From NCBI RefSeq assembly GCF_001540865.1, contig NW_017893404.1, forward strand, positions 1 to 64,000: a stretch of 64,000 nt of DNA, given 5' to 3'. This stretch comes from Ananas comosus (taxonomy: Eukaryota; Streptophyta; Magnoliopsida; Poales; Bromeliaceae). The number at the start of each line of letters is the position of its first letter. Within the stretch, counting starts at the first letter, position 1. The notes beneath the pieces were generated by a model that saw only the letters and a program-made list of their open reading frames with translations, did no database searches and had not been told where the DNA came from. Positions 9,291 through 61,870 of this stretch are shown here, one piece after another. Both the position numbers and the translations under genes were made by a program.

Positions 9291-11216
9291 TGTAGAGTGT
9301 CGGGACGAGTTATAGTCGTTTTGGTGCGAAATAGACGCGAAAACGAACTCAAGAGTTGTGAAAGTTGGAGTTTGGATACTGAAATCTGCAAAAGTAGGAT
9401 TTTGAGTATTGTTTACCGGTACCTGAGAGGAGTACCGGTACCCCAGAGGGATTACATGAATGGTTGCTCTCGGGTTTGTGTAGCTTGGTGTTGCGTACCG
9501 GTACCTGTTGGTGAGTACCGGTATTGGGACTGGGTACCGGTACTGCATCGGGGCAAGTACCGGAACAACGTGCTTGGGTTCGCTGGATGCTTGTCGGGTA
9601 CCAGTACCCAAGTTGAGTACCGGTACTCCAAGCGACAAATTGAGTTAGTAAAGGGGGTTTTTAGTAATTTTTGCTGTTGGGTTATCTGTATTTATCCCCA
9701 ACCTATCCCCCCAGTTAGCTTCTTATCTGTGTAGAAGCTTGGAGAACCTGGTAGGTTGCTCCTCTTTCTCTCTCTCTAGCTAATTGAGGTTTGATCTCAT
9801 TGTATTCTCCTTGTCTTTGGAGGATTGCTCGCATACCTCGGTTGATTCCGTTGGGGGTTGATCTATGGGTTTCTTCTAGCGACTTCTTGCCAGTGTTGGA
9901 CGAGTGGTTGAGGTGGGTTAATGTTTATTGAAATCGTCGGAATTCCTCCTAAGTCGTAGAGTTGTCAGCATGCATCTTCTTGTTTTGATCATCATGTTTA
10001 GTAGCTCAAATTCGTGGATTTGCATGTTTTATATGAAATATGAATTTGGAGCATAATTTAATGATTTTAAATAAAGTTTTATATACTGAACTGCGATTTG
10101 ATTTAGGAGACAACTCGTTAAACCTACACCTGACACTTTTCGAAAAGTTAACAGAATTAGCTTTAGGCGCTGTTTTTCTTTTGTATCACCACTGTTAGTG
10201 TGCTGTAGATACTTAGATTAGTGTAGGTTAAGATTACGCTTGTGCTGAGGGGCCAAGCTCGTGGTTATAGTAGAGTTGGACTATTCCATACTGTCGGGTG
10301 CCGTCGGGGCTGACGGTGGACCCAGATTCGTCTATCTTGTATCAGATTGTGCCGAGGGTACGTGTGCCTTGGTTGTTAGACCAGTTTGACCCACTTGCAT
10401 TGACTATAGCCTGTGTGAGCCTTATTGAGCTCGACAGAGATACGCTTGCATACTCGGTTGGAGTGCCGCTCCGGAGTGAGGCTTTACTTGTGTTGATATC
10501 GTAGCAGTCCTGTTTGGATAGTTTTCTTGGACGGGCCACTCCCGTGGGTGGTGTGCGATGTAGTTTGGGTACAAGCTGGACTGGCCAGTCAGCGATCCCT
10601 TGAGATTGGGTCGGTGTGGTTGATTTGTAGCTAGTGATGCATTTCTATGTTTATAGAGAGCCTGATTTGGGTAGCGGTAGTATAGTAGCATATAGCTGTA
10701 AAGTTACTTCCAGCTTATTTTACTATCCTTTACCTATTGCTCATACTTTTATTGTAGACTTAGTGGGTGAGCCATTGGGGTCGGTGACGGTACTCACTGA
10801 GTACTACTCTGTTTTGCAGTAGTTCTCACACCCTGTTGTTACCACCTTTTTGTAGAGTCGTCTGTTGCTGCTGCTGTTGATTCCGATAGAGGTAAGGGAG
10901 TCGCGAGCTAGACTCCTGCCTTCCCTGGTCTTTTACTAGAGGAGCACACCTACAGAAGTAGTTGGATATTACCATGTACATACAGTTATGTTTAGTAGTA
11001 CTCGCTAGATGTTGGTTGTGCTTTTGGAGCTTGTATGTACAGCGGGCCTATTATGTATTTATATGAGTTTTTAGTTTTAGCAGCTCTATACCTCTTGTTG
11101 TTGCTTATATCTGTTTGCAGGTTTTCCTTTTGCTTCATATACACGAGAAATTCCTATATATACGGCGGCGGGTCTATTGGCATGCCCGGGGAAACGTGAT
11201 AATCCGGGGCGTGACA
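9291..11216 (+). mobile_element. Family E chromovirus-type LTR (solo or truncated)
   Basis: It starts TGTAGAGTGTCGGG and ends GGGGCGTGACA, the end shared by the gypsy LTRs of families B, C and D in this window. It has the same internal order as those: a palindrome array, then a CTCTCTCTCT leader near 9765, and a conserved CCATTGGGG...CTCACTGAG...TTTTGCAG block near 10773-10820. No PBS follows the 3' end, so it is not a 5' LTR of an intact element. The 5-bp flanks (ACATC, AATTT) do not match, so the left boundary is tentative. Confidence 0.6.
9413..9630. repeat. Array of GTACCGGTAC palindromes in LTR family E
   Basis: About seven copies or near-copies of TACCGGTACC / GTACCGGTAC lie within about 220 bp, with spacers of roughly 15-60 bp. 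Several are perfect palindromes; others differ by one base, such as GTACCAGTAC. Confidence 0.85.
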
Positions 11217-11559
11217 AATTTTCTTTTCATTAAATAAATAAATAAATTTTGTTGATCGGTTTGTGTTAATGATGATGCTCGGCCGCAATCGAGATCACCG
11301 CTCAACGGAATTGTGCAGTCGTCCCGGTCGTGGTAGGCAGGGCCCATTAACGGCTGCATAATATAGCCTCCTTACACTTTGTTTGATTGGGATATTAGGG
11401 AGGGGATAAGGGGTTATCCCCCACTTTATCCCTAAATAAGAGAAAGTGTAAGGTGGGAACTGTTGTTCCTACCTTAACGGGTTATCCTCGGATCACCCGT
11501 TAAGAGGTGGGACGGCAGTTCCCATTCCCTCTGGAATATCCCTAATCCCACTCTTCCGA
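11217..11559. other. Intergenic DNA between LTR E and a degenerate tandem repeat
   Basis: No gene is seen. The words TTTGTTTGATTGGGATA and GGGGATAAGGGG near 11380-11425 resemble Tourist-like MITE termini, but no matching right end was found, so it is not called. Confidence 0.35.
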
Positions 11560-13536: not shown

Positions 13537-13810
13537 TGTTAAGTCTTGTGTGTTGGCAAGTTTCGTGAAGTGAGTCGGAGTCTTGAAGGATCAGTGCGTA
13601 TCGTCGAAGATCAAAGAATCCAAGACTTCGAAGAAATCGAAAAATAACGCACGACGTGAATCACGATGCCCAGATAAGTCTTTAATTCATGTTATGGTGA
13701 TTCATACTTAGTTGTAGACATTAGAATTAGAAAATCAATAATTACTGGATTAGAAAGTGCATCGGAACTTTGCGAAACCCGAAACGGTGAAAAATTCAGG
13801 AAATTGCAAG

Positions 13811-13952
13811 TGTACCGGTATAGCATTGAAAGTGTACCGGTACAAAGTATGTTCCGGTACAACCAGCGACATGTCACCGGTTACAGTGTTTCGCAGGTTT
13901 TTTGTTCCGTCATCGTGTAACCGGTAACAACTTGAAAGTGTACCGGTACACA
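13811..13952. repeat. TGTACCGGTACA-type palindrome array in the 5' LTR of element A
   Basis: Copies include GTGTACCGGTATA, GTGTACCGGTACA, TTCCGGTACA, TCACCGGTTACA, GTAACCGGTAAC and GTGTACCGGTACAC. Some are perfect palindromes and others keep only the ACCGGT core. The 3' LTR copy of the same array is at 33228-33368. Confidence 0.85.
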
Positions 13953-14388
13953 ATGTAAAATTGTGATAAAACTTTCTAATCCGACTCTAATTGATTCTAA
14001 AATCTATAAATAAGCTATTGGGGTTCAATAACACATCAAGCATCACGAAAATGCATGTTTGAGAAACCCTAGAGGCTCGGAATTCATCAAAAACCTATTT
14101 TCTTCATAATAGCCTCTTTTAGCTCAAATCGAGAGATTGTAATTTGATATCAATATGTCGATTTGATCTACGCTTCGCTTGGAGTTTTTTTCTCTAGTTT
14201 TCTACAATACTCTATGTAAGGAAGTAAATTCTCGAAATACGAGAGTTGGACTTCGGTTAGAATCGACTGATTGTCGACTTGGTATGCTTCGGAAAAGCCG
14301 AAGGCATCAAAATGGCCAAAGGTGCATTGGAATGGAGTTCGCGAGAGCAAATGATGTGAAAAACCTGCACTTGGCAGATTTGCTCTCT

Positions 14389-14606
14389 GGGACCGGTCCC
14401 TGGCGGGAGGGACCGGTTCTTGAACATGGTCTGCGCGGGTTTGCTCTCGGGGACCGGTCCCTTTGCAGGGAGAGACCGGTCCCATTGACTGGTGGTTCCG
14501 GCGACGCATGATGCAACCGGTCCCTGGGCCAGAGGGACCGGTTCCCGAACGCGTAGATTTGGGGAGGTCCTGAGGGACCGGTCCCTGGCAGGGAGAGACC
14601 GGTCCT
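14389..14606. repeat. GGGACCGGTCCC palindrome array in the 5' LTR of element B
   Basis: Eight copies in about 220 bp, the perfect ones reading GGGACCGGTCCC, others GGGACCGGTTC or GAGACCGGTCC. Two copies are commonly paired through the spacer TGGCAGGGAG. The equivalent array in the 3' LTR is at 24672-24868. Confidence 0.9.
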
Positions 14607-15744
14607 CGTAGCCCCAATCTGCCCAAGATGGGTTGTGTCATGAAGGCAAAGTTGAGGAGTTTTTATGCAATTGTAGCATAAGTAGAAGCTATATGAGAGT
14701 ATGCTCTCTCTCTCTTCTCATTTTCTCTTCTAAAACACAAACCTAAAGCCTCTCTCTCTCTAATCTCTCTTCCTCTCTCTCTGGAAGGTGAAGAAGAGAA
14801 GGGATTTAGTGGAGAAGCAAGCAAGGAGAGGGATCTTTATCTTCATCTTCTTCCTCTACATCTTGGAGCTAACTTTTGGATGTAAGCTTGAAGCTCAATC
14901 ATGGTAGATTTCTAGGGTTTAGATCTTTAAGCCCTAGAATGGGTTAGATGGAACTCTAGTATGCTAAAGAGATGCTTTATGCATGAGTTTGAGAATTTAG
15001 AGTTTGATTCTTGCATGATTGCAAGTTAGGGCTCCAAAAATGGGGTTTTGTGATATGTTGGGTATTGATATAAATTGATCAAGTGTAAACCTAATTGCTA
15101 GGTTTTTAAACGCGTAGGCGAAGACGGTTCGACGATTCGTCGAGCAGGTGTAAAGTTACGGGCAAAATGGGGCTTTCCGAGCTTCATTTCCGCCTGGGAG
15201 GTCGAGACGACGTCGTAAAATCGCCGAACTTTATTCCTAAAGTCGTGACAACGCCAGAAGGTAGGTGGTGTCATCCCGAAGCAACCGGGCTCCTCTTTAT
15301 GTCTTAGTGTATTTCAAATCTTGCATCTCTTACATATATGCATTGTAGGATAAATGTGCATTTTCATTTCCTTATGCTTTCCTAGATGATATCATAGTGT
15401 GAGTTGAATGCTTGATATAGTGGATAGATAAGGATTGGGTCGAGACATTGAATCCTATAGTGCCGAGATAAGAGATGAACTCGATGATTGACAAAAGACA
15501 TAATGAGTGGCATGTAAATAACAATGACAACAGAACGAATGGCATGTAACTTAGTGTATAAATGACACTGACACGTGAGCTTAGGGATAGGCGGATTCCC
15601 TAGAGATGAGTCATTGAACAAGAACCTAGTGTAGCACTTGCATATGGACTTTGGGATAGGTGGATTTCCGAGTGATTGTTAGCCCTAGTGGGTAGGGTAT
15701 CCTCGAGTTGAGAGGATTGGATCATACTCGTTGTCTGTTCAGAA

Positions 15745-15768
15745 CTTGTGTTGGTCGCTCCTCACAAG
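15745..15768. other. Conserved 24-nt stem-loop in LTRs of families B and C
   Basis: CTTGTG ... GGTCGCTCC ... CACAAG can form a 6-bp outer stem and a short inner stem. Equivalents are at 26009-26032 (3' LTR), 35707-35730 (solo B'), 22617-22640 (solo C) and 56455-56478 (solo C'). The outer stem and GGTCGCTCC are kept while the bases between vary. Confidence 0.6.
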
Positions 15769-16672
15769 TGTGCGCTCCGAAGTTTTGTCACATGAGGGAT
15801 AGCCAGCCTTATGGGGTCCCTGGGATAGCCTTATGGGGTCCTACAGACGGTTTCGGGTTTGTGACCGAGTTGAGTCTCCTTACCACGAGATGCATGTGAG
15901 TCGTGGGCGAACCTCCGGGTTGGCCAAGGATTGGATAAGCCAAAAGAATTGATGAACAAGTAAACAACATTACTTCTTGGACATAGTGGTATGTTAGTTG
16001 ATTACTTTATTTATCACATTGTGCATGCATACATTGTATATGATTCGGGCACAGTAGCATATCTTTCTTACTATGTTGTTACTGCTTTCATATATCTATC
16101 TATCTATCTATCTGCTTGTGCCCACTTGGACCTAGTGGGGAGATCAGCGGAGTCGGCGGCCGAATCCACTGGGAATTATGGACGATAGTTCTTACCCCAC
16201 TTTGTTGCAGGGCCGAGTACGAGCGCTCCGGGCGAGAATCGCGGCAAGGGCTTAGCGCCCTAGCATTAGTATCCCTCCTGTTGCATTAGAGATACTTACA
16301 TATGTGAGAGTAGTTGATGTATAGGTTGTGAGATGCATTTTGGAGATATATGAATGAACCTGTATCTATATTTTGGATGAAACGAAAATGTAAATTTTAT
16401 AAATGTACAAATCATGATGTAATAGATAGAACTCTCTTTTTATGCACTTGTATAGATACTTGTTTTACTTGCTCTTGTTGTTATGCACTTGTGGTGCTTC
16501 TATTATCGTTGTATGGATCATATATGTATTGAATTGTTCCTTGGCGAATTCTTGTACATGATCCCGTGCTTGAGCCTTGGACGGACAGGGGAGGTGCTGT
16601 CCGTTCGGCGTCTGTTCGACTTGCCCGAATCGGACCAAATAGGTAGCGGTCTCGGGGCGTGACAGGTGTTTA

Positions 16673-16684
16673 TGGTATCAGAGC
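16673..16684 (+). other. Primer binding site of element B
   Basis: TGGTATCAGAGC, complementary to the 3' end of plant initiator tRNA-Met, lies 8 bp after the 5' LTR end. Confidence 0.9.
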
Positions 16685-17049
16685 AAGAAAATAAGAGCAA
16701 GTAAAGAGAGAAGTCTAAGAGTGACCTAGGAGGCCCTAGGACGAAAACCTTAAGGTTATATATGCGTGAGTGAGACGTGAACTTATGACAATGGCGGGAG
16801 TTAATCGATTCGGTCAGGATTGGAGTATGTTTCTAGTAATGACTGGAAACGGATTCAAGTGGTATGAGTCCTCGACTCGCAGTGGTTGTGTTGGTGGCCG
16901 ACAACATGACACTAAGAGTCTAGAATGAGTACACTTGTGTGCTTCCGCCTAATTGCAGTGTCGAGTCGCGTTATTTTGTAAGTGCGATGAGGTTTAACGG
17001 GTTAAGGTGATTAAGGTGATTAACCAAGTTGGTTATGTTTCAGGAGCTA
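16685..17049 (+). other. Untranslated leader of element B
   Basis: Sequence between PBS and the gag start. No ORF of interest is seen; it is expected to hold packaging signals, but none can be recognised. Confidence 0.6.
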
Positions 17050-18190
17050 ATGTCCCCAAAGCGTTACACGCGTAGATCCGTTCCGGCACCGCCTCCTGAG
17101 GTGCCCGAGCAAGTTGGATCTGGCGAAGTACAAGAGTTGCGGGCGCAAATGACTGCGCTAGCTGGCGTGGTGCAGCGCCAAGAAAGTCGGTTCGAGCGGC
17201 TCTAAGAGCTTATGGAGCGGCAGGTGGCGGAGGTGACTGATGGTCGTGATCCGCCCGCCCCCTCGGCGCGCGTGCCTTAGGCGGCTGAGGGTGAGGGCAT
17301 AGCGGCAGTTCCGGTGGCGGCACATCCCCCGCCGGCGAGTGTTCATCCGGCGGCCTCGGGTTCGGCGACACCCGATGCGGCGGCCGAGGAGGTGGAGCGG
17401 GAGCGTGCGTTGGCAGCTCTTATCAAGTTCAGGAAGTTCGACCCACCTATTTTCGAGGGGGAAAAGGTGGAGCCGTCGATGGTGGAGTCGTGGGTTGACT
17501 CAATGGAGACGCTCTTTGAGGACTTATCCACCTTGGAGAAGGATAAAGTATACCTCGCCACCCATTGCCTCGAGAATGCGGCGAAGATGTGGTAGAAGCA
17601 GGTGAAGCGAGACCGGTCTTCCGACCTTTTACCGATGTTATGGGAGGAGTTTAAGAAGACAGTGTTAGCAAACTACTTCCCCGACACTGTGAAACGGAAG
17701 TTGCAGGAGAAGTTTCGTGAATTGAGGCAGGGGGACCGTTCAGTGGCGGACTATGAACAGGAATTCTCCCACATTATAGATTATGTCCCGGATGTTGTTC
17801 GAGATGATCGGGATCGAGCCGATTGGTTCTTGCGAGGGCTTCGGCCGGGGATATATAGGGCCGTGCAGCTGTTCAAGCTCACGACCTTTGCCGAGATATT
17901 TGATTGAGCACTGTGGGCGTAGCACGGTGATGCCCACGTGCGAGAGGAGCATGAGCTGATGGCCGAGTCGAAGGACAAAGGGAAGAAGCGTAAAGGCGGT
18001 GGTTTGGGGGGACAATCTAGTTCCAAGAAGCCCCCGAAGTACTCGCGATCACAGTCTAGAGGCCGAGGAGCACCGCAGTGTGTTATCTGTGGTGGAGACC
18101 ACCCCGCATCACGTTGCAGCCAGCGGCAGGGGAAATGCTTTAAGTGTGGGCAAGCGGGGCACTTCATCCGTGACTGTCCTGGAGGAGCCT
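17050..18190 (+). pseudogene. gag: gag portion of the element B gag-pol frame
   Basis: ATG at 17050 opens a frame that stays in register to the chromodomain. Gag would form the particle and package the RNA. The retrotransposon gag domain lies at about 17425-17907 (FDPPIFEG, WVDSMETLF, FRELRQGDRSVADYEQEF, DRADWFLRGLRPGI). A degenerate CVICGGDHPASRC knuckle and a good CCHC knuckle CFKCGQAGHFIRDC (18136-18177) follow. In-frame stops are TAA at 17203, TAG at 17278, TAG at 17593 and TGA at 17905. Most fit single C-to-T or G-to-A changes from CAA, CAG, TGG and CGA, as expected for methylated, silenced DNA. Normal length and order otherwise. Confidence 0.9.
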
Positions 18191-20511
18191 TGCCTGCTCC
18201 GTTTGTCGCATCGGCTCCAGCGACTTCGGCCCACTATAGAGGAGCCCCACTGGCAACAGCATCGGCTGGACGCGCGATGGCGCCGCGTCAACCTGAGATG
18301 ATGCCATCGGCTCCGAGCGGACGGGTATTCGCCACTCAAGCCGAGGAGCCTGTCGAAGCCGAGGAGCGCCACGTTGTGGCAGGTATGGTTTTAATTAACG
18401 GAGTTCGCTCCAGGGCTATGTTTGATACAGGTGCCACGCATTCATTCATCAGTAGATCGTTTGCACAAATGCATGACATTGGCATTCAGTCGAGTCAGAG
18501 CACCTGGCGAGTAGAGGGCCCCGGGCGTGCGTTCGTTATTCGCAAGGAGTGTTCGGCGTGTCGAGTTCAAGTCGGCAGCTGGATAATGCCGATTCGTATG
18601 TTGATGCTCAAGAGGTTGAAAGACTTCGACGTTATACTGGGCATGGACTGGCTTTCGAAATACTACGCGTTTATTGATTGCAGACATAAGGTGGTAACGT
18701 TTCGGGAGCCAGGACAGGAGGAGTTCACATATCGAGCGTGCAAGAGCTCATGCTTCGCCGCGACACTATCTGCGACGAGAGCAAGGAAATTAGTTAACAG
18801 CGGTTGCGTGGCTTACCTGGCGACCATTGTGGAAGTGGACCGAGTAGTTCCGGCACTTGAGGAGTTGTCGGTGGTTCGGGAGTTTCCGGACGTGTTTCCT
18901 GTGGAGTTACCGGGGATGCCGCTGAATCGAAAGATCGAGTTTGTAATAGACTTGATCCCCGGAACGGCGCCGATCTCAAAGGGCCCATATCGTATGGCGC
19001 CGACTGAAGTAAAGGAGTTGAGGGCTCAATTGCAAGATCTCCTCGACAAGGAATTCATCAGGCTGAGTGTGTCACCGTGGGGAGCCCCGATATTATTTGT
19101 GCGGAAGAAGGATGGATCATTTTGACTCTGCGTGGATTACCGCGAGTTGAACAAGGTCACGATCAAGAATAGGTACCCACTGCCCCGAATCGATGACTTG
19201 TTTGATCAACTACAGGGGTCGTGCGTGTACTCCAAGATAGACCTATAGTCCGGTTACCATCAACTAAAGATAAAGCCGGAGGATGTTCAGAAGACCGCGT
19301 TTCGCACGTGGTACGGGCATTATGAATTCACGGTTATGCCGTTCGGGCTCACGAACGCCCGGGCAGCATTTATGGACTTAATAAACCGTGTCTTTAAGGA
19401 GTACTTGGATCGATTCGTTGTGGTTTTTATAGACGATATTTTGGTCTATTCTCGTAGTGACGAGGAGCATGCCGAGCATCTAAGGCTAGTGCTTCAAATC
19501 CTTCGGGAGGAGAAGTTCTATGCGAAGCTAAAGAAGTGCGACTTTTGGCTCCGAGAGGTCGCATTTCTGGGGCATGTTATTTCTGAGGGTGGTGTATCTG
19601 TTGACTCGAGAAAAATTGAGGCGATCAAGGATTGGCCGCGCCCAACTAATGTCACGGAGGCCCGAAGCTTCGTGGGCTTGGCGGGCTATTATAGACGGTT
19701 CGTGGGGGGCTTGTCGAAAATAGTTATTCCACTTATCCGTCTAACTAAAAAGGGCACCAAGTTTGTTTGGAGCGAGGAATGCGATCAGAGTTTCAATGAG
19801 TTGAAGGAGAAACTAACTTCGACTCCGGTGCTTACCTTGCCGGTGCCAGGTAAGGACTTTGTGGTCTATAATGACGCGTCTTACTCAGGATTGGGGTGTG
19901 TTCTGATGCAAGGCGGGAAGGTGATCGCGTACGCATCCCGTCAGTTGAAAAGCTATGAGAAGAACTACCCTGTCCACGACTTGGAGTTAGTCGCGGTGGT
20001 ATTTGCTCTCAAGTTGTGGAGGCATTACTTGTCTGGCGTGCGCTACGAAGTGTATACTGACCATAAGAGTTTGAAGTATTTGTTCACACAAAAGGAGCTG
20101 AATATGCGACAACGGCGGTGGTTAGAGCTGCTTAAGGATTATGATCTCAATATTCTCTACCACCCCGAGAAGGCGAATGTAGTCGCTGATGCACTTAGTA
20201 GAAAGTCAGCGGAGAACCTCGCGATGTGGGTCACAAATCAGGAGCCCCTATGGAAGGAAATGGGACGGATTGGCCTCAAGGTTGTAGCTTCGGAGGTTCT
20301 GGCTATGTTGTCAGCTCTCGTTGTCCAACCAACCTTGTTGGAGAGGATTAAAGGGTTGCAACCTGCAGACCCAGCTCTCCAAAAGGTACGGCGCGACATC
20401 GAGAGTGGACGCGCTCGCGATTTCGGTGTAGACGCCGAGGGTGTGCTTCGGTTTCAGAATCGGTGGTGTGTACCGGACAATGAAGAAATTCGGAAGCTGA
20501 TTCTGAAATAA
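18191..20511 (+). pseudogene. pol: Protease, reverse transcriptase and RNase H of element B
   Basis: Same frame as gag. The aspartic protease has an intact DTGA at 18424-18435 (MFDTGATHSFI) and ends with an ILGMDWLSKY-type segment. Reverse transcriptase begins near PYRMAPTEVKEL (about 18990). It contains KKDGSF then a TGA at 19123 (expected Arg), DYRELN, and a TAG at 19246 in KIDL-stop-SGYHQL. It also has FGLTNA and the catalytic FIDD at about 19426-19437. RNase H follows ([13 protein letters not shown] from about 19867, TDHKSLKYL near 20056, DALSRK). A TAA at 20509 stands where a Glu/Lys is expected just before the integrase HHCC finger. These enzymes would process Gag-Pol and copy the RNA. 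Despite three stops the domains are complete in order and length. Confidence 0.93.
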
Positions 20512-20930
20512 GCGCATTGGTCGCCTTATAGTATCCACCCAGGCGGCACCAAGATGTATCAAGATCTGAAACAGCATTACTGGTGGCCGGGAATGAAAGT
20601 CGACGTTGGACGCTATGTGGCGCAGTGCTTAGTATGCCAACAGGTCAAAGCAGAGCGCCGATTTTCAGCGGAAAAGCTTCAGAGCCTACCTATCCCCGCT
20701 TGGAAATGGGAGGATGTGACCATAGACTTCGTGGTCGGCTTGCCTCGTTCATCGGGTGGCTACGATGCAATCTGGGTGATTGTGGATCGTTTGACGAAAT
20801 TGGCACACTTTTTGCCAATCCACACGACTTGGGCAGGTGATAGGCTAGCGCAGGTATACCTTGATGATATTGTGAGGTTGCACGGGGTGCCAAAGTCGAT
20901 CGTATCGGATCGAGACCCCTGGTTCACTTC
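20512..20930 (+). pseudogene. int: Integrase, N-terminal half, element B
   Basis: Continues the pol frame. The HHCC zinc finger is visible (SIHPGG, QHYWWPGM, CLVCQQ), then the core domain with TIDFVVGLP and SDRDPWFTS, which supply the first two catalytic aspartates. The frame is cut after FTS by the family C solo LTR. The five bases ACTTC at 20926-20930 are repeated at 23582-23586. Removing the insert plus one TSD copy (2656 bp) leaves the frame in register with the downstream half. Confidence 0.92.
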
Positions 20931-21126
20931 TGTAATACACTGGATCTTAGCAAATTGCAAGATTCGAGTGTTTGATTTGTGAGTGGAGCCTTTCCACGGT
21001 TTTTGGAGGGTCGTTGATAGTGTTCCGACCCCTGGCACGCACCCCGAGGATGTTGGTTTGAGGCTTGGTACCAAAATCCAAAAATTGGATTCATTGGACA
21101 GCTCTCGGGTAGCCTGCAGCAGGACT

Positions 21127-21440
21127 TGTACCGGAACAGGACTGGCCTTGTACCGGTACAAGGGTTGATGGTTGTACCGGTACAGCCATCGGGCTTGTAC
21201 CGGTACAGAGCCGCAGACCGCGCGACCCGAGCCTTGTGTTTGCAATTTCGTCGGCCTTGTACCGGTACAAGAGCCCGTGTACCGGTACAAGGAGGCAGAT
21301 TTNNNNNTTGATGGTTGTACCGGTACAGCCATCGGGCTTGTACCGGTACAGAGCCGCAGACCGCGCGACCCGAGCCTTGTGTTTGCAATTTCGTCGGCCT
21401 TGTACCGGTACAAGAGCCCGTGTACCGGTACAAGGAGGCA
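21127..21440. repeat. TGTACCGGTACA palindrome array in solo LTR C
   Basis: Perfect TGTACCGGTACA dyads recur with spacers of about 10-60 bp, e.g. around 21149, 21174 and 21197, then again after the N gap. The copy number is inflated by the duplicated block described separately. Confidence 0.9.
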
Positions 21441-21445
21441 GATTT
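21165..21445. other. Exact 138-bp duplication flanking a 5-N gap (likely assembly artefact)
   Basis: 21165-21302 and 21308-21445 are identical by eye and separated only by NNNNN at 21303-21307. This is what an unmerged contig overlap looks like. A real tandem duplication is less likely because the junction coincides with the gap. Confidence 0.85.
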
Positions 21446-23581
21446 CGTGCAGTTTGAACTACAGGGGGTTTTTCGCGATTGTAGCCTACCTATTAGTAAC
21501 CCCACGCCCCTTAGGGCTTCCCTGAGCTTCACAGCAGCAGGAGAAGAGGTAGGGGAGTTCTCCACACCCTCCCTCTCTATTTCTTTGATTTTGGTTGGTT
21601 TTATTTGTGATTTAAGCCTCTCTTTTTCCCTCTTTTTGCTTCTTGGTGTTCTCCCTCCATGGAAGGAGCTTGAAGCTTGGTTTTGGAGCTTGTTTGAGGG
21701 GAGATTCTCAGATTTTGGGGACTTGGATACTTGTTGGAGGCTTCCAAAGAGGTTAGAAACATGATTCCACCTTTTGATTCATGTTTTTGAGGCTTTGTTG
21801 AATTGAAACCCTAGATTGTGATATTAGGGTTTGTTTTGGGTATTTTGAATCTAGGGCTTTTAAAGCTAGATTGAGTGGATTAGAGGCTTCCATTGGGTTA
21901 GATTGGGTGAGCCCTAGCTTCATTTTGGAGCTCTAGAGGAGATTTTGCACTAAAGGTGAGTTTTCCACACCTATGATTGATTAGCTTAATGTTTGAGCTA
22001 GGTATTGTTCGTTCGGCTCGTATGACTCATGTTCTTGTACCTTTAGGGTACTAGGAGACTAGAGGACACCCTCGTTGGAGCGCACGAGGAGTTTCGTTGT
22101 CATCGGTGGGTTTGGCTTCGTGGAAATGGGGTGGAATGGCCCCTATGCTCTTTCTACTTGTTGTAAAATATTTCTAAATTCATTTCTATGCTAAATGGGA
22201 TTTATATGAATTTTGGAGCACTTAAAATGCATGCCTTGTGTATTATGAAAATTTCACTACATAGTAGAGCCATATGAGTAGATGCATGCATACGGAAAAT
22301 GTGCTTATTTTGCAAGTGGAAAATGCATATCTTATGAGGATTATGACTTGGAATATGTACCTTGGAACATAGTTGCCATGTTTTGACATAGAGAACAAGA
22401 GTGTCATAAAGGGGCACTTGAAACTAGTAAACTATGAAACTGCAACATAGAGACATATTAATAGGCCACTACTTATCTGCTATATTCCATGTTAGAGACA
22501 TGATGACATAGGGATAGGCCATTGAGATACTTGACACATTCCATGTTATTAGACATGAGGACTTAGTACTTGCGACAGATCGTACGACTACTTGCCATTG
22601 TGCTCATTCGCACATGCTTGTGAGGGTCGCTCCCTACAAGCCGGCACTCCGGAGTTGGCCATCGCGATTCATATTCGCCGTGCGGGATTGGGCGCCGAAG
22701 TGGATTGCCGTGGGACAGGCTCATTCCTAGGGTGGGAATGATGACTACCACGGGGCCATTAGGCTCGGCACCGGCCAGACAGCCTTCGGGTGGGTCTCAG
22801 GGCCATAGACAGCCTTCGGGTGGGTCTCTTCAGATTTGACTTGAGTGTTCATTATGATATGTGGACAGATGATGACTTAGAGTATTACTTGGACATTGAC
22901 TAGAATAGTAAACAACGGAACTTTACTATTTCACATTGTGAACATCATGATAGTTGGAGACTTTTACTTCTTGCATAGTTGCTTTCATACTTATGCTATT
23001 TATGCTAAGTAGAGATATCATGTCGTAGTAGGTTACATTTTTACTTACCTTTCGCTTTTCTACCTTTATAGTCACTGACATCTTTGGTAGCTTTGGGCCT
23101 TGTGGTGCATTCACTGAAGTCAGTAATTGCCCACTGGAAATTATTCTTAATAGTTCTCACGCCCCTGTTTCAATGTTTCCTTTTCAGAGCCTTCGGCACC
23201 GGCGGAGGCACGGGATCGCGGCAAAGGTGTCGCGTAGCTAGCTCGCGGAGAGTTTCTGTTACCTAGGTGGTTTACTCCTCCATTTTATATTTTGAGAGAG
23301 TGTGAGGCTTTTGTATCCATGTATAGAGACCACCTGTGTACCTACCTATAGCACTTGTATTTGGGATCCCTATTGTACTTACTTTATGTTTTATTTAGTG
23401 GATTTACAGTTTTATCCTTATCCTTGTTGTAGCTTTTAGACATTTATTATGCTCTGATACTCGTAGATGTCTTGTATTATTGCTTTTATTATTGTTGTTT
23501 CTAGACGCCTTATACGTTTTAGACGTATGGCGGGTCTGGGCACGCGCCGGGCGGGCTTCCGCTGGGTCCTGGGGCGTGACA

Positions 23582-24418
23582 ACTTCGCATTTTTGGAAGA
23601 GCCTGTAAGAAGCGTTGGGCACACGACTCGATTTCAGCACCGCTTTTCATCCTCAGATAGATGGACAGTCAGAGAGGACTATACAGATTCTGGAGGATAT
23701 GTTGCGGGCGTGTGTCATTGACTATAGGGGTAGTTGGAGTAATCACTTACCGATGGCCGAGTTCGCCTACAGCAATAGTTATCAGGCTAGCATAGGGATG
23801 GCACCGTTCGAAGCTCTTTACGGACGAAAGTGCCGATCTCTTATTCATTGGAGTGAGGTAGGCGAGCGTGCGGTTCTAGGCCCCGATGTTTTGCGAGAGG
23901 CGGAGGAAAAAGTCTGTCTTGCTCGCCAAAGGTTGCTCACGGCGCAATCTAGGCAAAGGAGTTATGCTAATAAGCGCCGTAGAGATTTGGAATTCGTGGT
24001 AGGCGACCGCGTCTTTTTAAAAGTGTCGCCCAGGAGAGGCATGAAGCGGTTCGGAGCGCGGAAAAAGAGTCCCCGATATATTGGACCATACGAGGTGTTG
24101 GAGCGGATTGGTGCGGTGGCTTATCGGCTAGCGTTGTCGCCAAAGCTCGCCGATGTTCATTATGTCTTCCATGTCTCTAACCTCCGCAAATATATTCAAG
24201 ATCCCGAGCATGTGTTGTCATATGAACCGCTGGAATTACGCGAGGACTTGAGCTATGAGGAATATCCGGCGTTGATTATTGCTCGAGAAGTGCGAAAGTT
24301 GCGAAATCGCGAAATTTCCTACGTCAAGGTTCGATGGACCAAGCATAACGATTGCGAAGCTACGTGGGAACTTGAGGACGCAATGAAAGCGAAGTACCCT
24401 CATCTTATTGAGGCGTGA
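23582..24418 (+). pseudogene. int: Integrase C-terminal half and chromodomain, element B
   Basis: Resumes directly after the solo LTR: HFWKSL, then a TAA at 23606 (expected Gln), EALGT, FHPQIDGQSERT with the third catalytic residue (Glu codon at 23672-23674), [34 protein letters not shown] and YIGPYEVLERIG. The last about 50 residues (AREVRKLRNREISYVKVRW, EATWELEDAMKAKYPHL) form a chromodomain, which marks the chromovirus lineage and directs integration to heterochromatin in related elements. The stop at 24416-24418 is the natural end. Confidence 0.92.
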
Positions 24419-24483
24419 GTAAGGTATGAATTAAGTTCGAGTTTAATTAAGAATTGAGTTCGTTTCGAGGACGAAACTCTTTT

Positions 24484-24497
24484 AAAGGTGGGGAGGA
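24484..24497 (+). other. Polypurine tract of element B
   Basis: AAAGGTGGGGAGGA lies directly before the TG of the 3' LTR and primes plus-strand synthesis. Confidence 0.9.
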
Positions 24498-26928: not shown

Positions 26929-26933
26929 CTCTA

Positions 26934-27408
26934 AGCGAAGGATCACCATAATCATGATGCTCTTCATGAACGGCGTCGTGGATTCGGCGTGATCAAGGGA
27001 TTCGAGGATTCGGATCGAAAGCTTCATGGATTCGAAGTGGTAGAGCTTCGTGGATTCGGAGTGGAGGCGTTTCGTGGATTCGGGATGTGGCGTTCGTGGA
27101 TTCGAACGTGAGGGCGTGGACAACCCGGAGGATTGCGCGAGATTCATAAGAGGGTAAGAGAGGTCGAGTCCGTGGAGTCGGTAATCACCTTGTAATCTTT
27201 TCTCTTAGTGAATTATTTTTTCGCGTGTTGGTCCTGTAGGTTTTTCTTCAAGTTGGAGTTTTTCCACGTAAATCTCGGTGTGTTTTTTACTTTCCGTATT
27301 TACTTTTATTGCATCGAGATTTGTGGTTTTTGGCCGTTACACCTATTCACCACCCTTCTAGGTGTTGGATACAATCTAGATAGATCCTTGGGCACCCCCA
27401 AACTTATA
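26934..27408 (+). mobile_element. 5' LTR of element A, second part
   Basis: Continues from 14214 after element B. Contains several GTGGATTCG(A/G) repeats (26975-27115), GTAATCACCTTGTAATC, and the end ...GGCACCCCCAAACTTATA. The terminal CA is mutated to TA compared with the 3' LTR, which ends TTACA. Confidence 0.88.
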
Positions 27409-27410
27409 AT

Positions 27411-27422
27411 TGGTATCAGAGC
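27411..27422 (+). other. Primer binding site of element A
   Basis: TGGTATCAGAGC two bases after the LTR end, matching initiator tRNA-Met. Confidence 0.9.
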
Positions 27423-27446
27423 GGGATCTAAATAAATTGATATCTA

Positions 27447-32435: not shown

Positions 32436-32594
32436 TCTTACCTTTTTGAGCTTCATTATCTATGTTTTATCTTTTCTCTCCTAGGACTATATTTAGTTTA
32501 CTTATTTTTGCTTTTAGGCCTGTATCTATGACTTGACAACTTTTCTGCTTTTTAGTATGTTTTCTCTCTATATGCTTTCTTTTTGGCAATTTTT

Positions 32595-45996: not shown

Positions 45997-46047
<51 letters not shown>

Positions 46048-46119: not shown

Positions 46120-46124
46120 GCTAT

Positions 46125-49100: not shown

Positions 49101-50719
49101 TATGTCCGTTGACCTGGTTGGTCGGTTGTTGCATTATGTATTGGGTTGGTCTGTTTCTTGACTTCTGTTGTTCGATGACCTTTGAGGTCGGTGTACCCTG
49201 AGGGGTAGGATTGTCGGCTGGTGCTGACGGTAGTTCTGGACTATATCGAATACACTCCTGTGACCTATCGGTCGGTTCTTGCGTTCGTACTTCTAGTTGA
49301 CATCGAGCAGTATCTACATATTATCTTTATTTACTCTGCCTGGTTGTTCTATGTGTAGTATCCTGTATAGGGGTAGAGTAGATGGCATTCGTATATACTA
49401 TACTTGTGACCTGGTTGGTCGGTTCTCCTGTTTGCATCGGTGACCTGTTTGGTCGTTCGTTACTTTCCGTATATTGACCTCTCTTGGTCGGTTCACGTTG
49501 TTACTTGATGACCTACACGGTCGGTTAGCCCCGAGGGGCAGTGATTGTCGGCTGATTGCCGACGGTTGGCTATTGATCATATCCGCATTGATCGCCACAG
49601 CTCGAGTGCATTTCACGTACACCAGCGGGTTGATCCCCCGCAGGAGGGTGTTCTTTTCCGGAAAAGTGGTCGTACATCCGACCCGTGAGCCCAGCGGTGT
49701 TCTCTTTGTGCTAGGGTTACATGCCAGGTGTGAGCAGATAGTGGCTTTTGCCTGAGGTCCTTAGACCGACACGGCGGTTTAGATTGGGTACTTTTGGACT
49801 TCTCGTCGGTTGACGAATATCGCTATAGTAGGCCGTTGTCCCATTATGTACTTCTAGTTCTTCTTTACGCAAGTTTGTCTTGCTACTATAGTTTTGATTC
49901 TTTGTAGCTTGCAGTTGTAGCATTACAGTAGCCGGTAGTTTGTTTTCATATATATATATATCCGCGTCCCATTTTCGTTGCTATTTTTTCTGTATTTACT
50001 TACCCATATTGTTGGTTATCTCTTCCTGATCCGTGAGTACCCCTTCGCTCTTCCTTCGCTTGCGGGTACCCACTGGGAGGAGACATGTTTACATGTTCCA
50101 CCTCCCCCCACCATTTTTCAGTATCCCACGCGGCGTTGGTGTGGACGAGACGTGAGGTACGTGTGGTAGCGGTCGATAGAGCTTCCACCCGTCAGGTTTA
50201 TTCGCGATTTAGCTATTACCCCTTTTTATTCTGTGGATATTATAGCTTAAACGTCGGTTACAACTGGTCATTTTGTTTTATTAAATTGAATATCTGAGTT
50301 TTCAGTTGGTTTGAATGTAATAAAGGAATTGTGATTTCGTTGAAACTAGAAAGATTTTTTCTACCCCTCGTGTCGTTTTTTAAAAGAATAAAGAGGTTTC
50401 TGTGGTAGAAACAGACTTTCAAAGGTTTTTCGATGGATTTCTGTTAATACCTCGAACTGTAAACGTGTGATTTGGAATCGGGGAATTTGATGTATATGAC
50501 TATCTGTATAGTCTCATTTGATTGTCGGTGTATTAAACTGTTTGTACTTGTGTGACGCCGTGCAAGTACAGGGGAGACTCTGTCCGTGTGAATAGTGGAT
50601 TTCCTGTATTTGTGGCGGATCTGGCATACTCTGGGGTCAGGTTTTCAAAAAAAAAAAAAAAAAATTTCAAACGCTTTTCCGCTGTATTTCAAACAAAAAG
50701 GGAACCCCGGGGCGTGACA
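46125..50719 (+). mobile_element. Family D solo LTR, complete, about 4.6 kb
   Basis: TGTAAGGACTGAG...GGGGCGTGACA, TSD GCTAT at 46120-46124 and 50720-50724. In order: an AT-balanced 5' part, a very GC-rich 46840-47790 section full of long but meaningless Pro/Arg/Ala frames, a middle homologous to 36582-38013, a tandem region 49008-49550, the CCCACTGGG...CACC...TTTTTCAG block (50069-50122), and an A-run at 50648. At 4595 bp it is a very long LTR. Confidence 0.93.
49008..49550. repeat. Tandem minisatellite GGTGACCTGATTGGTCGGTT in LTR D
   Basis: About ten diverged units of 30-60 bp, each containing GACC(N5)GGTC, which can fold into a small hairpin. The first two units (about 49008-49075) are nearly identical. 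Units near 49200 and 49545 also contain GTCGGCTG...GACGGT inverted words. Confidence 0.8.
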
Positions 50720-50724
50720 GCTAT

Positions 50725-54918: not shown

Positions 54919-57397
54919 TGTAACACACTGGACCTTTACAAATGGTGAGGTTCCAGCGTTTGATGAGTGTTCTGAGTTTTTCCAGATATTCTGGAGGGTC
55001 GTTGACAGTGTTCCGACCTATGGCTCGTATCTCGAGATTTATGATATTTTAAGTAGCGTTAAGGCCACCAAAGAGGAGGACTTAGGCTGCTCTCGAGTTG
55101 CCTCCGCAGGGCTGTCTACCGGTACAGCCTTGATGGTTGTACCGATACAGAAAGTGTACCGGTACATCTTGATGGTTGTACCGGTACAGATGTGGTGAAT
55201 TGCTAACTCGAGGCTCGGGTTAGCTGTTTCGCAGGATTTGTACCGGTACACTTTCCCGTGTACCGGTACACTTTGCCAGACTGCGAACAGGCTGTGTTTG
55301 AGGGGTGTTTTTGCATTTGTGCTTTCCTATATTAGCACCCACGCCCCTAGGGCTCTCTCTGAGCCTTGCACCAGCAGAGAAAGAGGTAAGGGGGTCCTCC
55401 ACACCTCCCCTTTTGATTTCTTTGCTTTCACTTGAGTTTTGAGAGATTAAACATCTCTTTTTGGTCTTCTTTTGCATCTTGGGGGCTTTTCCACCATAGG
55501 AGAAGACTTGGAGCTTGGTTGGAGGATTGTTGGAGGAGAGATCTTCAACCCTAACTCATTCCAAGCCTTGTTTGGAGCTTCTTGTGAGGTTAGTTGATTG
55601 CTATTCCTCTTTTAATCATGATTTGCATGATTTTTTAGATGAAACCCTAGAATTGGAACTTAGGGTTTATTTTTGGAGATTTTGGATTTGTAGCTTCTAA
55701 AATGTAATTGATTGGTTTAGAACCTTGGTTTAGGTTGCTTTGAAAGGGATTTAACTCTCTTTTGAGTTTTAAAAGGGAATTTCTACACTATAGGTGAGTT
55801 TCCTCCACCTCTGCTCGAATTGCTTAATGTTTGAGCATAGTGTTGTTCGTAAAGTTTGTTTAACTCTCGTTTTTATACCTTAGGGTACTAGGAGAGTGGT
55901 GGACACCTTCGTCGGGGCAAACGAAGGGTTTCGTGAAGTCACGGTGGGTTTGGCTTCATTGGAATAGGAGAAAACTTCCCCTAAGTGGTTGAATGTCTTC
56001 GTTTCATCGCATGGCATGCATATTCATGCTAGATAGAATTTATATGAATTTTAAAATACTTAAAATGTATGTGTTATGTATTATGAAAATTTATCTCTAT
56101 ATAGTAGAGCCTTATGTGGATTAGACATGCATGTGAGTAGTATTCTTCTTGTGGATTGGAAATATGTCTCATATGATGAAAATGACTCGAATTATATATT
56201 CTTGAACACTAAACTCATGCTTGGATCTAGTGCACAAAAGTGCCATAAAGGGGCACCGACTTAGTAAACTGTGAAACTGCAACATAGAGACATAGTGATA
56301 GGCCATTGTGACATCTATTATATTCCATGTTTTAGACATAATGACATAGTGATAGGCCATTCAGACATATGTTATATTCCATATTTTAAACATGAGGACT
56401 TGAGACTTGAGACAGACTTATATGCTTACTTGCCCTTGTGCTCATTCGCACATGCTTGTGAGGGTCGCTCCCTACAAGCCGGCACTCCGGAGATAGCCAT
56501 CGCGATACATACTCTCCGTGCGTGATTGGGCGCCGAAGTGGATTGCATTGGGCAAGGCTCATTCATAGAGTGGGGATGTTGACTACCACGGGGTTATTAG
56601 GCACGGCACAGGGCAGACAGCCTATGGGTGGGTCTTCAGGCCAGACAGCTTTCAGGCGGGTCTTACAAGATTGGAACTATATGTAGTTGATATGCCAAAT
56701 GGACTTAAACTAGAATAGTAAACAATGACACCTTACTATTTTCGTTGTGGACATTGTGTTGGTTGTATACTTATGCTTATTCATGTTAGTATAGCTTTCT
56801 TACATGTGCAAAATCATGCTAAGTAGGGACATCATGTTGTAATAAGCATTCAAGTTATTTACCTGCTGTTCATTTCGTTTATTACTCGCTTCGACTTATT
56901 TGCTTAGTTTTGGGTCTAGTGGTGCTCTTATCTGAAGTCAGTAATTGCCCACTGGGAACTATTATTTTATAGTTCTCACGTCCTCTGTTTGATGTCTTTT
57001 TCAGAGCCTTCGGCACCAGCGGAGGCACGGGATCGCGACAAGGAAGTCGCATAGCTAGTTAGCGCGGAGCTTACTTTTGCTCCTAGGTGGTCTACTCTCT
57101 TTTTGTGTTTTTGGTGAGAGAGAGTTTTGTTACCATGAATAGAAACCACCATTGTACCACTTATAGCACTTGTACTCGGATTTTTGTTGTTCTACTTTAT
57201 GGTTTTATTTTAGTGGATTTTAGCTTTTGTTGTACTCTCCTGTTGTAAAATCTAGTAGTACTTTACTCTGATATCGCTAGATCTTTTTGTATTATTGTTT
57301 TATTTATTGCTTTATCGTAGACGCCTTATATATTTTAGACATATGGCGGGTCTGGACACGTGCCGGGCGGGCTTCCACTGGGCCCCGAGGCGTGACA
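54919..57397 (+). mobile_element. Family C' solo LTR
   Basis: TGTAACACACTGGACC...GAGGCGTGACA, 2479 bp, TSD ATCAT at 54914-54918 and 57398-57402. Homologous to solo LTR C along its length: GGAGGGTCGTTGA, palindromes, CT-rich leader, GTGCTCATTCGCACATG, stem-loop at 56455-56478, GCCCACTGGGAACT...TAGTTCTCACG...TTTTTCAG at 56947-57004, and ATGGCGGGTCTGG near the end. Confidence 0.93.
55117..55272. repeat. TGTACCGGTACA palindrome array in solo LTR C'
   Basis: Six sites: CTACCGGTACA, TGTACCGATACA, and four TGTACCGGTACA. The last two, separated by CTTTCCCG, are followed by CTTTGCC. Confidence 0.9.
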
Positions 57398-57402
57398 ATC
57401 AT

Positions 57403-59298: not shown

Positions 59299-61870
59299 TG
59301 TCACGCCCCGGGACACAGCGGAAGCCCACTCGGCGCGTGCCTAGACCCGCCATATGTCTATAACATACAAGGCATCTAAAACAAACGATGAATAAAGTAG
59401 TAGAACAAAGGGATCTAATGATATTAGAGCAAAGTATAATTAACTAAGTTCTACAACAGAGAGATAAGTATAAAACTGAAATCCACTAATAAAGCCATAA
59501 AGTAGTACAATAGAAATCCCAAACACAAAAGCGAAATATAAAGAGTACATAGGTGGTCTCTCTATACATGGTACTCAAAATCTCTCTCTCTCTCTAATAC
59601 AATAAAAAAAAGAGTAAATCATCTAAGCTCAAAAGTAACTCCGCGCTAACTAGCTACGCGACTCCCTTGCTGCGATCCCGTGCCTCCGCCGGTGCCGAAG
59701 GCTCTGAAAGAAACCATAAAACAGAGGGTGTGAGAACTATTAAATAATAGTTCCAAGTGGGCAATTACTGACTTCAGTGAAATGCGCCACTAGGCCCAAA
59801 AGCTATAAAAGAGGGTTAGTAGAAGTATAAACGAAGGCGAAATAATGAACAAGTATGTAACCATGAGTACTATTTTACCATGATATCTCTACTTAGCATG
59901 AACTGCATAAGTAATAAAGCAACTACAACAAGTATGTACATGAGTGTGACTAACATGTGTAAGCATGAGTATACAACCAAACGATGTCCTCGATGCAAAT
60001 AGTAAAGATGTTATTATTTACTATTCTAGTCAATGTCCACTTGTCACTTTAACCATTAAAAGTTTAATCTTATAAGACCCACTCGAAGGCTGTCTGGCAT
60101 GAAGACCCACCCGAAGACTGTCTGGCCTGTAGGATCCACCCGTAGGCTGTCTGGCCGGTGCCGTACCTAATGGCCCCGTGGTAGTGAACATCCCCACTCT
60201 AGGAATGAGTCTTTCCCACGGCAATACACTTCGGCGCCCAATCCCGCACGGCGAATAGGTATCGCGATGGCTAACTCAGGAGTGCCGGTCACGATACCAA
60301 GCATGCGCGAATGAGCATGATGGCAAGCATGCATATAAGTTTGTCTCAAGTCTCAAGTCCTCATGTCTAAGAACATGGAATGTATCGAATGTCACAAAGG
60401 CCTATCACTATGTCATCATGTCTATAACATGGAATATAGTATATGTCCAATGGCCTATCACTATGTCTCTATGTTGCAATTTCATAGTTTTCTATGTCAA
60501 GTGCTCCTTTATGACACTTTGTTCCACTAAGTCCAGTCATCGTGTAGTGTTTACAATTACACAAATATGAGCTAATATAGCATACGAGACATGATTCCCA
60601 CTTGTTATCTCGAACACTTCTCACATGCATGAAAATAACCCTAATTGCTCTACTATATAGAGGGAAATTTATCTTACACATAGCACATGCATTTTAAGTG
60701 TTCTAAAATTCTCATGAATCCTATCTAGCATGGATTTGTATTCAAAAAGACTTTACGACAAGTATAGAAAGCATAGAGACCATTTGCCCCGTTTTCATAA
60801 AGCCAAACCCACCAAAAATCGAAACTCTTCGTTTCACCGAACGGAGGTGTCCACTAGTCTCCTAGCACCCTAAAAATGTAGGACCAAGAATTACACAATG
60901 GAAACGAACATCGAAAGCTCAAATTCTAACCAACAAGGCATAGAGGGCTAAACTCTCACCTAGTGTAGAGATCCCTCTTCAAAGCTCAAACGGAAGCAAA
61001 ATCCCATGCAAGGCAACCTAAACTAAGATTCTAATCTCATTAGACTAGCCCCGAAAGCCACCAAACAAAAAGCCCCAAAATAAACCCTAAAATCCAAATC
61101 TAGGATTTCATCTCCCAAAATCCATCAAAAATAGATCTAGAGGGGACAAAACAAGCAACTAAACTTCTTGGTAGCTCCAAACCAAGCTCAAAATGCTCTA
61201 GGGTTGAAGATTGACCCTCTATCAAGCTCCTAGCCCAAGCTCCAAGCCTCCAATGGTGGGCAAAAGGGAGAAGGAGATGCTCCAAAGCCTCAAGATCTTG
61301 CTCTCCTCCAATACCTTCTTCTTCTTCTCCTTCTTCTTCTCTTTCTAGAGGGTATAGAGAGAGTGTGAGGGAGAGAAATGAGGGTGAGAGGGAGAGGAAA
61401 TGGCCTTAAGGCCCTTTGAAGCAACAAAATCTACTTAAGTCCTTCAAAAATCCAACCTGTGCACAGCCCGGGTCTGGGCAGTTTTCGGACTGAGGGACCG
61501 GTCTCCTCGACCTGGGACCGGTCTCCTCGACCTGGGACCGGTCTCTCAGCCTGCCGTGAAAATCCAACGTTCGGGAACCGGTCTCTCCCCGCATGGGACC
61601 GGTCTCTCCCGGCAAAAACGTACTCGGGGACCGGCCTCACCCGCGAGGGACTGGTTGCCTCAAGTCCTGCCGCAGCACTGTTCTGAGGGGACCGGTCTCT
61701 CCTATCAGGGACCGGTCCCTGAGAGTGAAAACTCTCAGGACAATGCCAAAACTCCAGGAATCGAACTTTTAGGTCGGAATACCATCAACGACTTTCCACC
61801 AAGTGTGGAAAAGTTCGGAATCCAACCAAATACTCGAACCTTGCAATTTGCAAAGGTCCAGTGTGCTACA
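59299..61870 (-). mobile_element. Family C LTR on the minus strand (3' LTR of a truncated element)
   Basis: Read on the minus strand it starts TGTAGCACACTGGACC and ends CGGGGCGTGACA, 2572 bp. It is homologous to solo LTRs C and C' at both ends: GCAAATTGCAAGGTTCGAG and AAAGTCGTTGATGGTATTCCGACC at the start, ATGGCGGGTCTAGGCACGCG at the end. It is preceded, in its own orientation, by a polypurine tract (61871-61884) and pol, so it is a 3' LTR. Its palindrome array is of the GGGACCGGTCTC type rather than TGTACCGGTACA. The outer flank is GTTTC (59294-59298). Confidence 0.9.
61494..61725. repeat. GGGACCGGTCTC palindrome array in minus-strand LTR C
   Basis: About eight sites of the ACCGGT core: GGGACCGGTCTCC (twice in a tandem CTCGACCTG unit), GGGACCGGTCTCTC, GGAACCGGTCTC, GGGACCGGCCTC and GGGACCGGTCCCTG. 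Confidence 0.9.

Follow-up and report, generated by a model that had tools for sequence, protein, structure and literature searches.

Within a 64,000-nucleotide stretch of the Ananas comosus genome (NCBI RefSeq assembly GCF_001540865.1, contig NW_017893404.1, positions 1 to 64,000; hereafter the window, and the whole scope of this analysis), retrotransposon long terminal repeats (LTRs) carry arrays of short palindromes, or dyads, centred on CCGG. The arrays lie in the U3 region of LTRs of the Ty1/copia Sirevirus type (A, A') and of the Ty3/gypsy chromovirus type (B, B', C, C', C''), and in a further LTR, E, whose ends alone suggest that it is gypsy. An earlier sequence-only reading had noticed these arrays; we find, beyond that reading, that their dyads are set on a grid of about 20.5 bp and share a half-site, CGG-W-M. 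We think it roughly an even chance (probability about 0.5) that the arrays are phased sites for a dimeric host DNA-binding protein, serving as promoter-proximal LTR enhancers and shared by Sireviruses and chromoviruses. The arrays are as follows.

9412..9627, plus strand: E array, eight units with half-site CGGTAC, one a perfect 12-mer; spacings 19, 63, 20, 19, 23, 41 and 19 bp; TATTTA 61 bp downstream.
13811..13950, plus strand: A 5' LTR array, six units, four TGTACCGGTACA-like (two perfect) and two with an extra base pair per arm; TATAAATAAG 54 bp downstream.
33228..33367, plus strand: A 3' LTR array, twin of the A 5' LTR array.
30492..30523, plus strand: A internal pair, two more dyads 20 bp apart, upstream of a weak Transposase_32 match.
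14389..14606, plus strand: B 5' LTR array, eight GGGACCGGTCCC-type units, three perfect; spacings 20, 41, 22, 41, 21, 40 and 21 bp; TATATGAGAG 83 bp downstream.
24672..24867, plus strand: B 3' LTR array, seven units.
21127..21289, plus strand: C array, probably six TGTACCGGTACA units, five perfect; copies at 21316-21432 repeat the last four past an N gap.
34353..34642, plus strand: B' array, ten units near GGGACCGGTCYC, two perfect 12-mers; spacings 21, 40, 21, 72, 19, 15, 19, 51 and 20 bp.
38241..38470, plus strand: A' array, nine GGGTCCGGACCC-type units, four perfect; spacings 19, 43, 42, 20, 41, 20, 15 and 18 bp; TATAAATAAG 67 bp downstream.
55115..55270, plus strand: C' array, six TGTACCGGTACA-type units, four perfect; spacings 23, 17, 22, 62 and 20 bp; TATATTAG 57 bp downstream.
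61494..61719, minus strand: C'' array, nine units, five of them GAGACCGGTCCC in the element sense; a B-like array in a C-family LTR.

The spacing of the dyads is strongly periodic. Of 50 spacings, 42 fall at 19–23, 40–44 or 62–63 bp, the rest being 15, 15, 17, 17, 18, 32, 51 and 72 bp. With one copy taken from each of six families (40 spacings), the best period was 20.6 bp with a mean cosine of 0.83, a value reached by none of 2,000 random placements with the same unit numbers and spans (largest, 0.54). Adding B' and the A internal pair gave 20.5 bp and 0.75 over all 50 spacings (0 of 2,000 jittered sets), and the best period was similar in copia (20.8 bp, 14 spacings) and gypsy (20.4 bp, 36 spacings). 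The spacings of 32, 51 and 72 bp miss the 20.5-bp grid by about 10 bp and so lie near odd multiples of 10.25. Phasing on 10 and 20 bp is more easily explained by a factor on DNA than by an RNA hairpin.

Each dyad can be read as two half-sites. Across 128 half-sites, the two Gs of CGG were present in 124 and 123, followed by T/A in 127, A/C in 118 and C in 101, and the family-consensus words were CGGTC (B, B', C''), CGGTA (A, C, C', E) and CGGAC (A'). When right halves were shuffled among all units, the observed pairing of arms was never reached in 2,000 trials (at position 2 alone, it was reached in 408); when they were shuffled within families, it was reached in 228 of 2,000, and compensatory change between arms was thus not detected within families among the 64 units. 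The arms therefore co-vary between families but not within them. The earlier proposal that both arms change together stands for differences between families only, and its corollary, selection on each palindrome itself, is not borne out. Deviations within families are mostly one-sided, most clearly in C'', where seven of the nine units share an A–C mismatch at the second place, and they fit recognition of the half-site; the lack of detected compensation fits either a constrained half-site used twice or homogenized units. Taken with their position in the LTR and the phasing, half-site conservation and one-sided deviation point to a dimeric DNA-binding protein and to an enhancer role.

In a rival reading, the array, lying in U3 of the 3' LTR and hence in full-length transcripts, would fold as RNA into hairpins between dyads, serving the element or its silencing by small RNAs, a proposal already made for maize Sireviruses. 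Seven of eight 150-nucleotide windows from six arrays did fold with z-scores of −2.8 to −6.5 (the eighth, −1.9; a window from D2, an LTR of another family taken for comparison, +0.64), and small RNAs map to the palindromes of maize Sireviruses in the accessible text of two studies (PMC5311732, PMC10760457). However, any cluster of like palindromes would fold in this way, and the z-scores therefore have no power to tell the readings apart; a 10/20-bp grid is not required for hairpins, the constant CCGG core and half-site exceed what pairing needs, and compensatory change was not detected within families. We consider hairpins as the main function doubtful, although the arrays may also form silencing hairpins, either at a cost or in a secondary role.

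The dyads themselves are far in excess of chance. Exact copies in the 64,000 bases number 17 for TGTACCGGTACA, nine for GGGACCGGTCCC and four for GGGTCCGGACCC, where shuffles predict 0.00–0.01 (TGTACCGGTACA and GGGACCGGTCCC were additionally searched with up to three mismatches). We catalogued all 208 CCGG sites of the window with their arms; palindromic arms cluster in the LTR arrays, with isolated examples outside them, such as those at 676, 49658 and 53205. The ten array-bearing LTR copies each hold 4–11 CCGG sites with at least five of six arm positions paired, compared with means of 0.04–0.48 and maxima of 1–3 in 200 dinucleotide shuffles per LTR; the A 5' LTR entered this count only as far as the B insertion point, and the highest count, 11 in C, takes in a duplicated stretch. 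D-family LTRs showed no excess (one paired site in the whole of D2, none in the 3' part of D1 that was tested).

The duplication in C consists of identical 138-bp stretches (21165-21302 and 21308-21445) that flank NNNNN at 21303-21307, within the array. Such identity resembles an unmerged contig overlap, and the duplication probably arose in assembly and makes the dyad count too high; its four dyads at 21316-21432 are therefore not to be counted pending confirmation, and the true C array probably has six units, five of them perfect. Four of the 17 exact TGTACCGGTACA copies fall in this duplication. The clusters of five to nine dyads described previously are real against shuffles, except that the cluster of nine in C is inflated. 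Our set of 64 units in nine arrays, of which 23 are perfect 12-mers, excludes the four duplicated C units and the LTR twins A3 and B3.

Sharing between superfamilies is narrower than first proposed. Three identical dyads had been said to recur in copia and chromovirus LTRs, with B, C and E as the gypsy carriers; one of the three, TGTACCGGTACA, is indeed common to both superfamilies (copia A; gypsy C/C'), whereas GGGACCGGTCCC is confined to the gypsy LTRs B, B' and C'' and GGGTCCGGACCC to copia A'. B, C and E all carry arrays, those of E being built of GGTACCGGTACC/AGTACCGGTACT-like units instead. The arrays occupy about 6–20% of LTR length in B, B', C, C', C'' and E, and about 19–38% in A and A', so that the placement in the 5' third holds for the gypsy LTRs and E and is slightly overrun in A and A'. 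The CT-rich stretch described downstream of the arrays was seen, by eye, in the gypsy families.

Arrays can lose whole units. The B LTRs hold eight (5') and seven (3') units, a 22-bp deletion having taken out precisely one dyad with one spacer; as the two LTRs were identical at insertion, one unit has been lost since. Superunits of 61–63 bp are also apparent in B. Both observations would be expected if a palindromic unit had simply multiplied by slippage or template switching during reverse transcription and then been homogenized, regularity and symmetry being by-products. Within B, B' and C', short spacers resemble one another to a degree matched by 0, 1 and 1 of 300 shuffles, and those within C'' and A perhaps do so as well (11 and 16 of 300), in agreement with this neutral origin. 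Such an origin does not by itself account for the same core, half-site, spacing and LTR position in several families of two superfamilies; spacing is kept in E and A' without any clear likeness among short spacers (matched by 205 and 39 of 300 shuffles), and D2 repeats at a step of 35 bp instead. We regard slippage as an unlikely sole explanation.

Some arrays may also have moved between families. C, C' and C'' belong to a single LTR family (identity outside the array, about 72%), yet the arms of C and C'' differ and C'' has the B-type dyad. Beyond the dyads, C'' spacers resemble those of B (0 of 500, and 1 and 0 of 1,000 shuffles as similar; reverse-complement control, 512 of 1,000) more closely than those of C (15 of 500). 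A' and C'' spacers likewise exceed shuffles (0 and 1 of 1,000; reverse-complement control, 361 of 1,000), although their dyads differ and this is one of 36 pairs compared, among which single pairs need care. A and C' have TGTTTCGCAGG between dyads in common and near-mirrored spacing orders (22/17/23 versus 23/17/22, with one A unit added by hand), but across the whole array their likeness was weak (40 of 500 shuffles for A5, 17 of 500 for A3). Sixteen spacer 8-mers were common to two families, compared with 2.7 under the null, and no spacer word of 6–8 bases was present in all six families. Recombination or template switching of whole arrays, copia–gypsy exchange included, would explain the likeness by common descent; as a general account we find this rather improbable, and the case for transfer between superfamilies is weak.

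Of eight LTRs tested, seven (A, A', B, B', C, C' and E) have a TATA-like box 54–83 bp downstream of the array. Single boxes are frequent in shuffled stretches (149–777 of 2,000 per LTR had one at 50–90 bp, or 7–39%; for the TATAAATAAG boxes of A and A', about a third), and the weight therefore rests on the joint count, seven of eight against about 1.5 expected, with B/B' and C/C' being relatives. GC content is higher in the array in all eight LTRs compared. The arrays of A, C, C', C'' and E have a CpG observed/expected ratio above that found elsewhere in the LTR; those of A', B and B' do not (B, 0.77 versus 0.78). Divergence between LTR twins was 6.1% in the array and 4.4% outside it in B, and 2.7% and 5.1% in A; it is not clearly lower in arrays, and we make no claim of purifying selection.

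Several observations weigh against phased sites for a dimeric protein. The spacings of 15, 15, 17 and 17 bp are off phase; B' alone fits 20.5 bp poorly (0.40; own best period, 18.3 bp), and A fits best at 21.8 bp. Scored at its own best period, each array was equalled by random placement, per 500 trials, in none for E and B, 3 for A', 9 for C'', 15 for A and C', and 22 for B'. At 10 bp, A gives a weak signal (0.09), and C' (0.40) and A' (0.47) give middling ones. By the spacer likenesses given above, B, B' and C', and perhaps C'' and A, still bear the marks of tandem duplication, so that inheritance may account for some of the regularity. Behind the C'' array, no TATA-like box turned up, even with a loose motif set that was written with the sequences in view, and C and E show only the TATTAG/TATTTA form. 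The protein is hypothetical, and to ask one protein to read three half-sites is demanding: we know of no plant factor for CGGTC, CGGTA and CGGAC alike. To our knowledge none of TCP, SBP, LOB and DREB covers all three, and these readings were dropped; a literature search on LOB-domain proteins and CCGG gave no plant candidate among the matches listed.

If phased protein sites are nonetheless the right reading, a dyad would consist of two CGG-W-M half-sites (CGGTC, CGGTA or CGGAC) joined back to back with an overlap at the CCGG core, and a putative dimeric host protein would read each dyad. Steps of about 20.5 bp, occasionally 10 bp, would hold the dyads on one face of the helix, so that neighbouring dimers could act jointly on a TATA-like promoter some 55–85 bp downstream. 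Both the Sireviruses and the chromoviruses in this genome would then exploit the same or closely related host factors, while loss and gain of whole units, homogenization and some exchange among gypsy families would leave both arms differing together between families. More tentatively, the arrays might form a common cis-regulatory code of CGG-W-M dyads on a 10.25/20.5-bp grid, read in both lineages by one host family of dimeric proteins, with the arms marking paralogous readers and the arrays tradable between elements. LTR retrotransposons make up the bulk of many plant genomes, and how their two largest groups are switched on is largely unexplained; if the reading is right, the shared half-site and helical spacing would serve as a bait with which to find the protein and as a rule for searching any genome.

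The elements that carry the arrays were delimited by self-comparison, by termini with target duplications and by Pfam scans of separate stop-to-stop pieces.

9229..11216, plus strand: E, solo LTR with Del-type ends TGTA...GGGGCGTGACA and an imperfect 5-bp target duplication, GATTT/AATTT.
13537..34105, plus strand: A, Sirevirus-type Ty1/copia element; target duplication AGGCA; 5' LTR split by the B insertion.
14215..26927, plus strand: B, Ty3/gypsy element, probably a chromovirus, inside the A 5' LTR; target duplication CTCTA; LTRs at 14215-16664 and 24498-26927.
20931..23581, plus strand: C, solo LTR; target duplication ACTTC; includes the gap 21303-21307.
34180..36576, plus strand: B', solo LTR, 65% identical to B over its length; perfect target duplication GCCCT.
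38014..39201, plus strand: A', solo Sirevirus-type LTR in a D-family LTR; perfect target duplication GTATC.
48363..50719, plus strand: D2, comparison solo LTR with the same end type as B; target duplication GCTAT; no CCGG dyad array.
54919..57397, plus strand: C', solo LTR of the C family; perfect target duplication ATCAT.
59299..61870, minus strand: C'', 3' LTR of a C-family chromovirus, adjoined by an integrase SH3_Tf2-1 piece (62094-62516, minus strand).

Element A encodes a copia gag (Retrotran_gag_2, PF14223) and a zinc knuckle; no pol domain, RVT_2 or integrase, was found in 16 scanned pieces (of 79 open frames of at least 40 amino acids on both strands). A Transposase_32 match at 31521-31814, weak and below cut-off, may mark an env-like region. 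The Sirevirus primer binding site TATCAGAGC follows the 5' LTR, seen as TTGGTATCAGAGC at 27410, and the junction of polypurine tract and 3' LTR, GGGGGAGAT|TG, reads GGGGGAGAT|TGTTAAG, giving an AT/TG attachment. Near the LTR 3' end, TTCACCCCTCTCTAGGTG (A 3' LTR) and TTCACCCCCCTCTAGGTG (A') are what we take to be the Sirevirus poly-C integrase signal. The accessible sections of PMC2829016 define Sireviruses by the primer binding site TATCAGAGC and a terminal polypurine tract with AT/TG attachment, and name a poly-C integrase signal as a Sirevirus feature.

Element B matched protease, reverse transcriptase, RNase H, the integrase zinc domain (H2C2) and SH3_Tf2-1 above the Pfam cut-offs, with a sub-threshold chromodomain match (21.9 bits; cut-off, 25.1); solo LTR C interrupts it in the integrase region. 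Among the best 120 protein hits to its reverse transcriptase piece, those naming an organism were plants. The B 5' LTR, B', C and E terminate in GGGGCGTGACA, and the B 3' LTR in GGGGTGTGACA. B has the type A U5 attachment site (GGG at −8 to −10) by which the accessible text of PMC4029996 defines Del/Tekay, and D1 and D2 have the same end type. The integrase piece beside C'' indicates that the C family is gypsy too. D2 has a repeat of its own (49001-49472; six copies, one about every 35 bp, in which an imperfect dyad GACC-TGATT-GGTC adjoins CGGT), which differs from the CCGG arrays in motif and period. Beyond C'', plus-strand gypsy protease and reverse transcriptase pieces (62750-63998) begin a further element that leaves the window.

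Relatives were sought in a viral contig collection and in PLSDB. In the former, a GGGACCGGTCCC pair matched no locus at the single gap searched, exactly 10 bases, and the B reverse transcriptase piece matched none; PLSDB, searched in 'near' mode, gave no match to 13500-15500. A GTACCGGTAC pair pattern matched four viral contigs. In one, L002, at least eight GTACCGGTAC dyads (4225-4410) lie within a 372-amino-acid open frame of an AT-rich contig, and resemble repeats in the coding sequence of a prokaryotic virus rather than an LTR. All four contigs, of which L002 was inspected at sequence level, were set aside as presumably prokaryotic or phage DNA. We found no report of palindromic arrays in chromovirus LTRs among the matches listed in the open literature searched, and matches listed for the dyad sequences as text had no plant-LTR subject in their titles or abstract openings.

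The closest known system is the repeated motif of Sirevirus LTRs (Bousios et al. 2010, PMC2829016), to which the sequence-only reading had rightly likened the arrays. As in the accessible part of that paper, many CGG-CCG dyads lie in the upper LTR half shortly upstream of a TATA box, as in A and A', with one motif per family and extra copies in the internal region. Its copy number of at least eight per element compares with six in one LTR plus two internal in A, and nine in solo LTR A'. The arrays of A and A' are this repeated motif in an outward-facing form: most published half-sites face inwards, whereas here they face outwards and overlap in CCGG, sharing the core CG. Ten of the 13 Sirevirus motifs in its Table 3 carry CGGTC (four, Barbara in one half only), CGGAC (five) or CGGTA (one), or nine if both halves must fit; the Sorghum, Citrus and Tnd-1 motifs do not. 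A crude 3-in-16 model gives P of about 9e-6 for ten and 1e-4 for nine, in a post hoc comparison of our own with non-independent motifs (OPIE-2 and PREM-2 are identical). The sections consulted mention no 20.5-bp grid and call the motif Sirevirus-specific, with Ty1/copia elements as the comparison set. That restriction fails here, because like arrays stand in B and C'', with or beside gypsy chromovirus-type integrase domains; carriage by chromovirus LTRs, which the sequence-only reading thought new for identical dyads, looks new for the motif in the literature searched.

Three other systems offer partial parallels, as far as the accessible text of each goes. The maize palindrome CACCGGACNNNGTCCGGTG occurs in Copia and Helitron elements, where it is tied to structure and small RNAs (PMC10760457); it too is a single palindrome across unrelated transposable element superfamilies, but its second carrier is a DNA transposon, and here the partners are Ty3/gypsy LTRs with phased arrays. 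The VANC targets of VANDAL elements in Arabidopsis are short, family-specific tandem arrays of non-coding motifs that diverge between relatives (PMC5735166, PMC10398659). By analogy, an element or host protein could bind the pineapple-genome arrays and lift silencing, which we judge very improbable: no such protein appeared when pieces of A and B were scanned with Pfam (no search aimed at it was made), an element-specific system would not be expected to be shared across superfamilies, and VANDALs are DNA transposons with their own binding protein, whose motifs are not described as dyads (PMC5735166). Finally, plant Del LTRs have a plastic 5' CpG island (Cruz et al. 2014, PMC4029996), a paper in which the word palindrome is absent. 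The arrays could be one molecular form of these islands; if sites for a shared dimeric factor are the right reading, a motif called Sirevirus-specific would become general and offer an account of the plasticity of CpG islands in Del LTRs.

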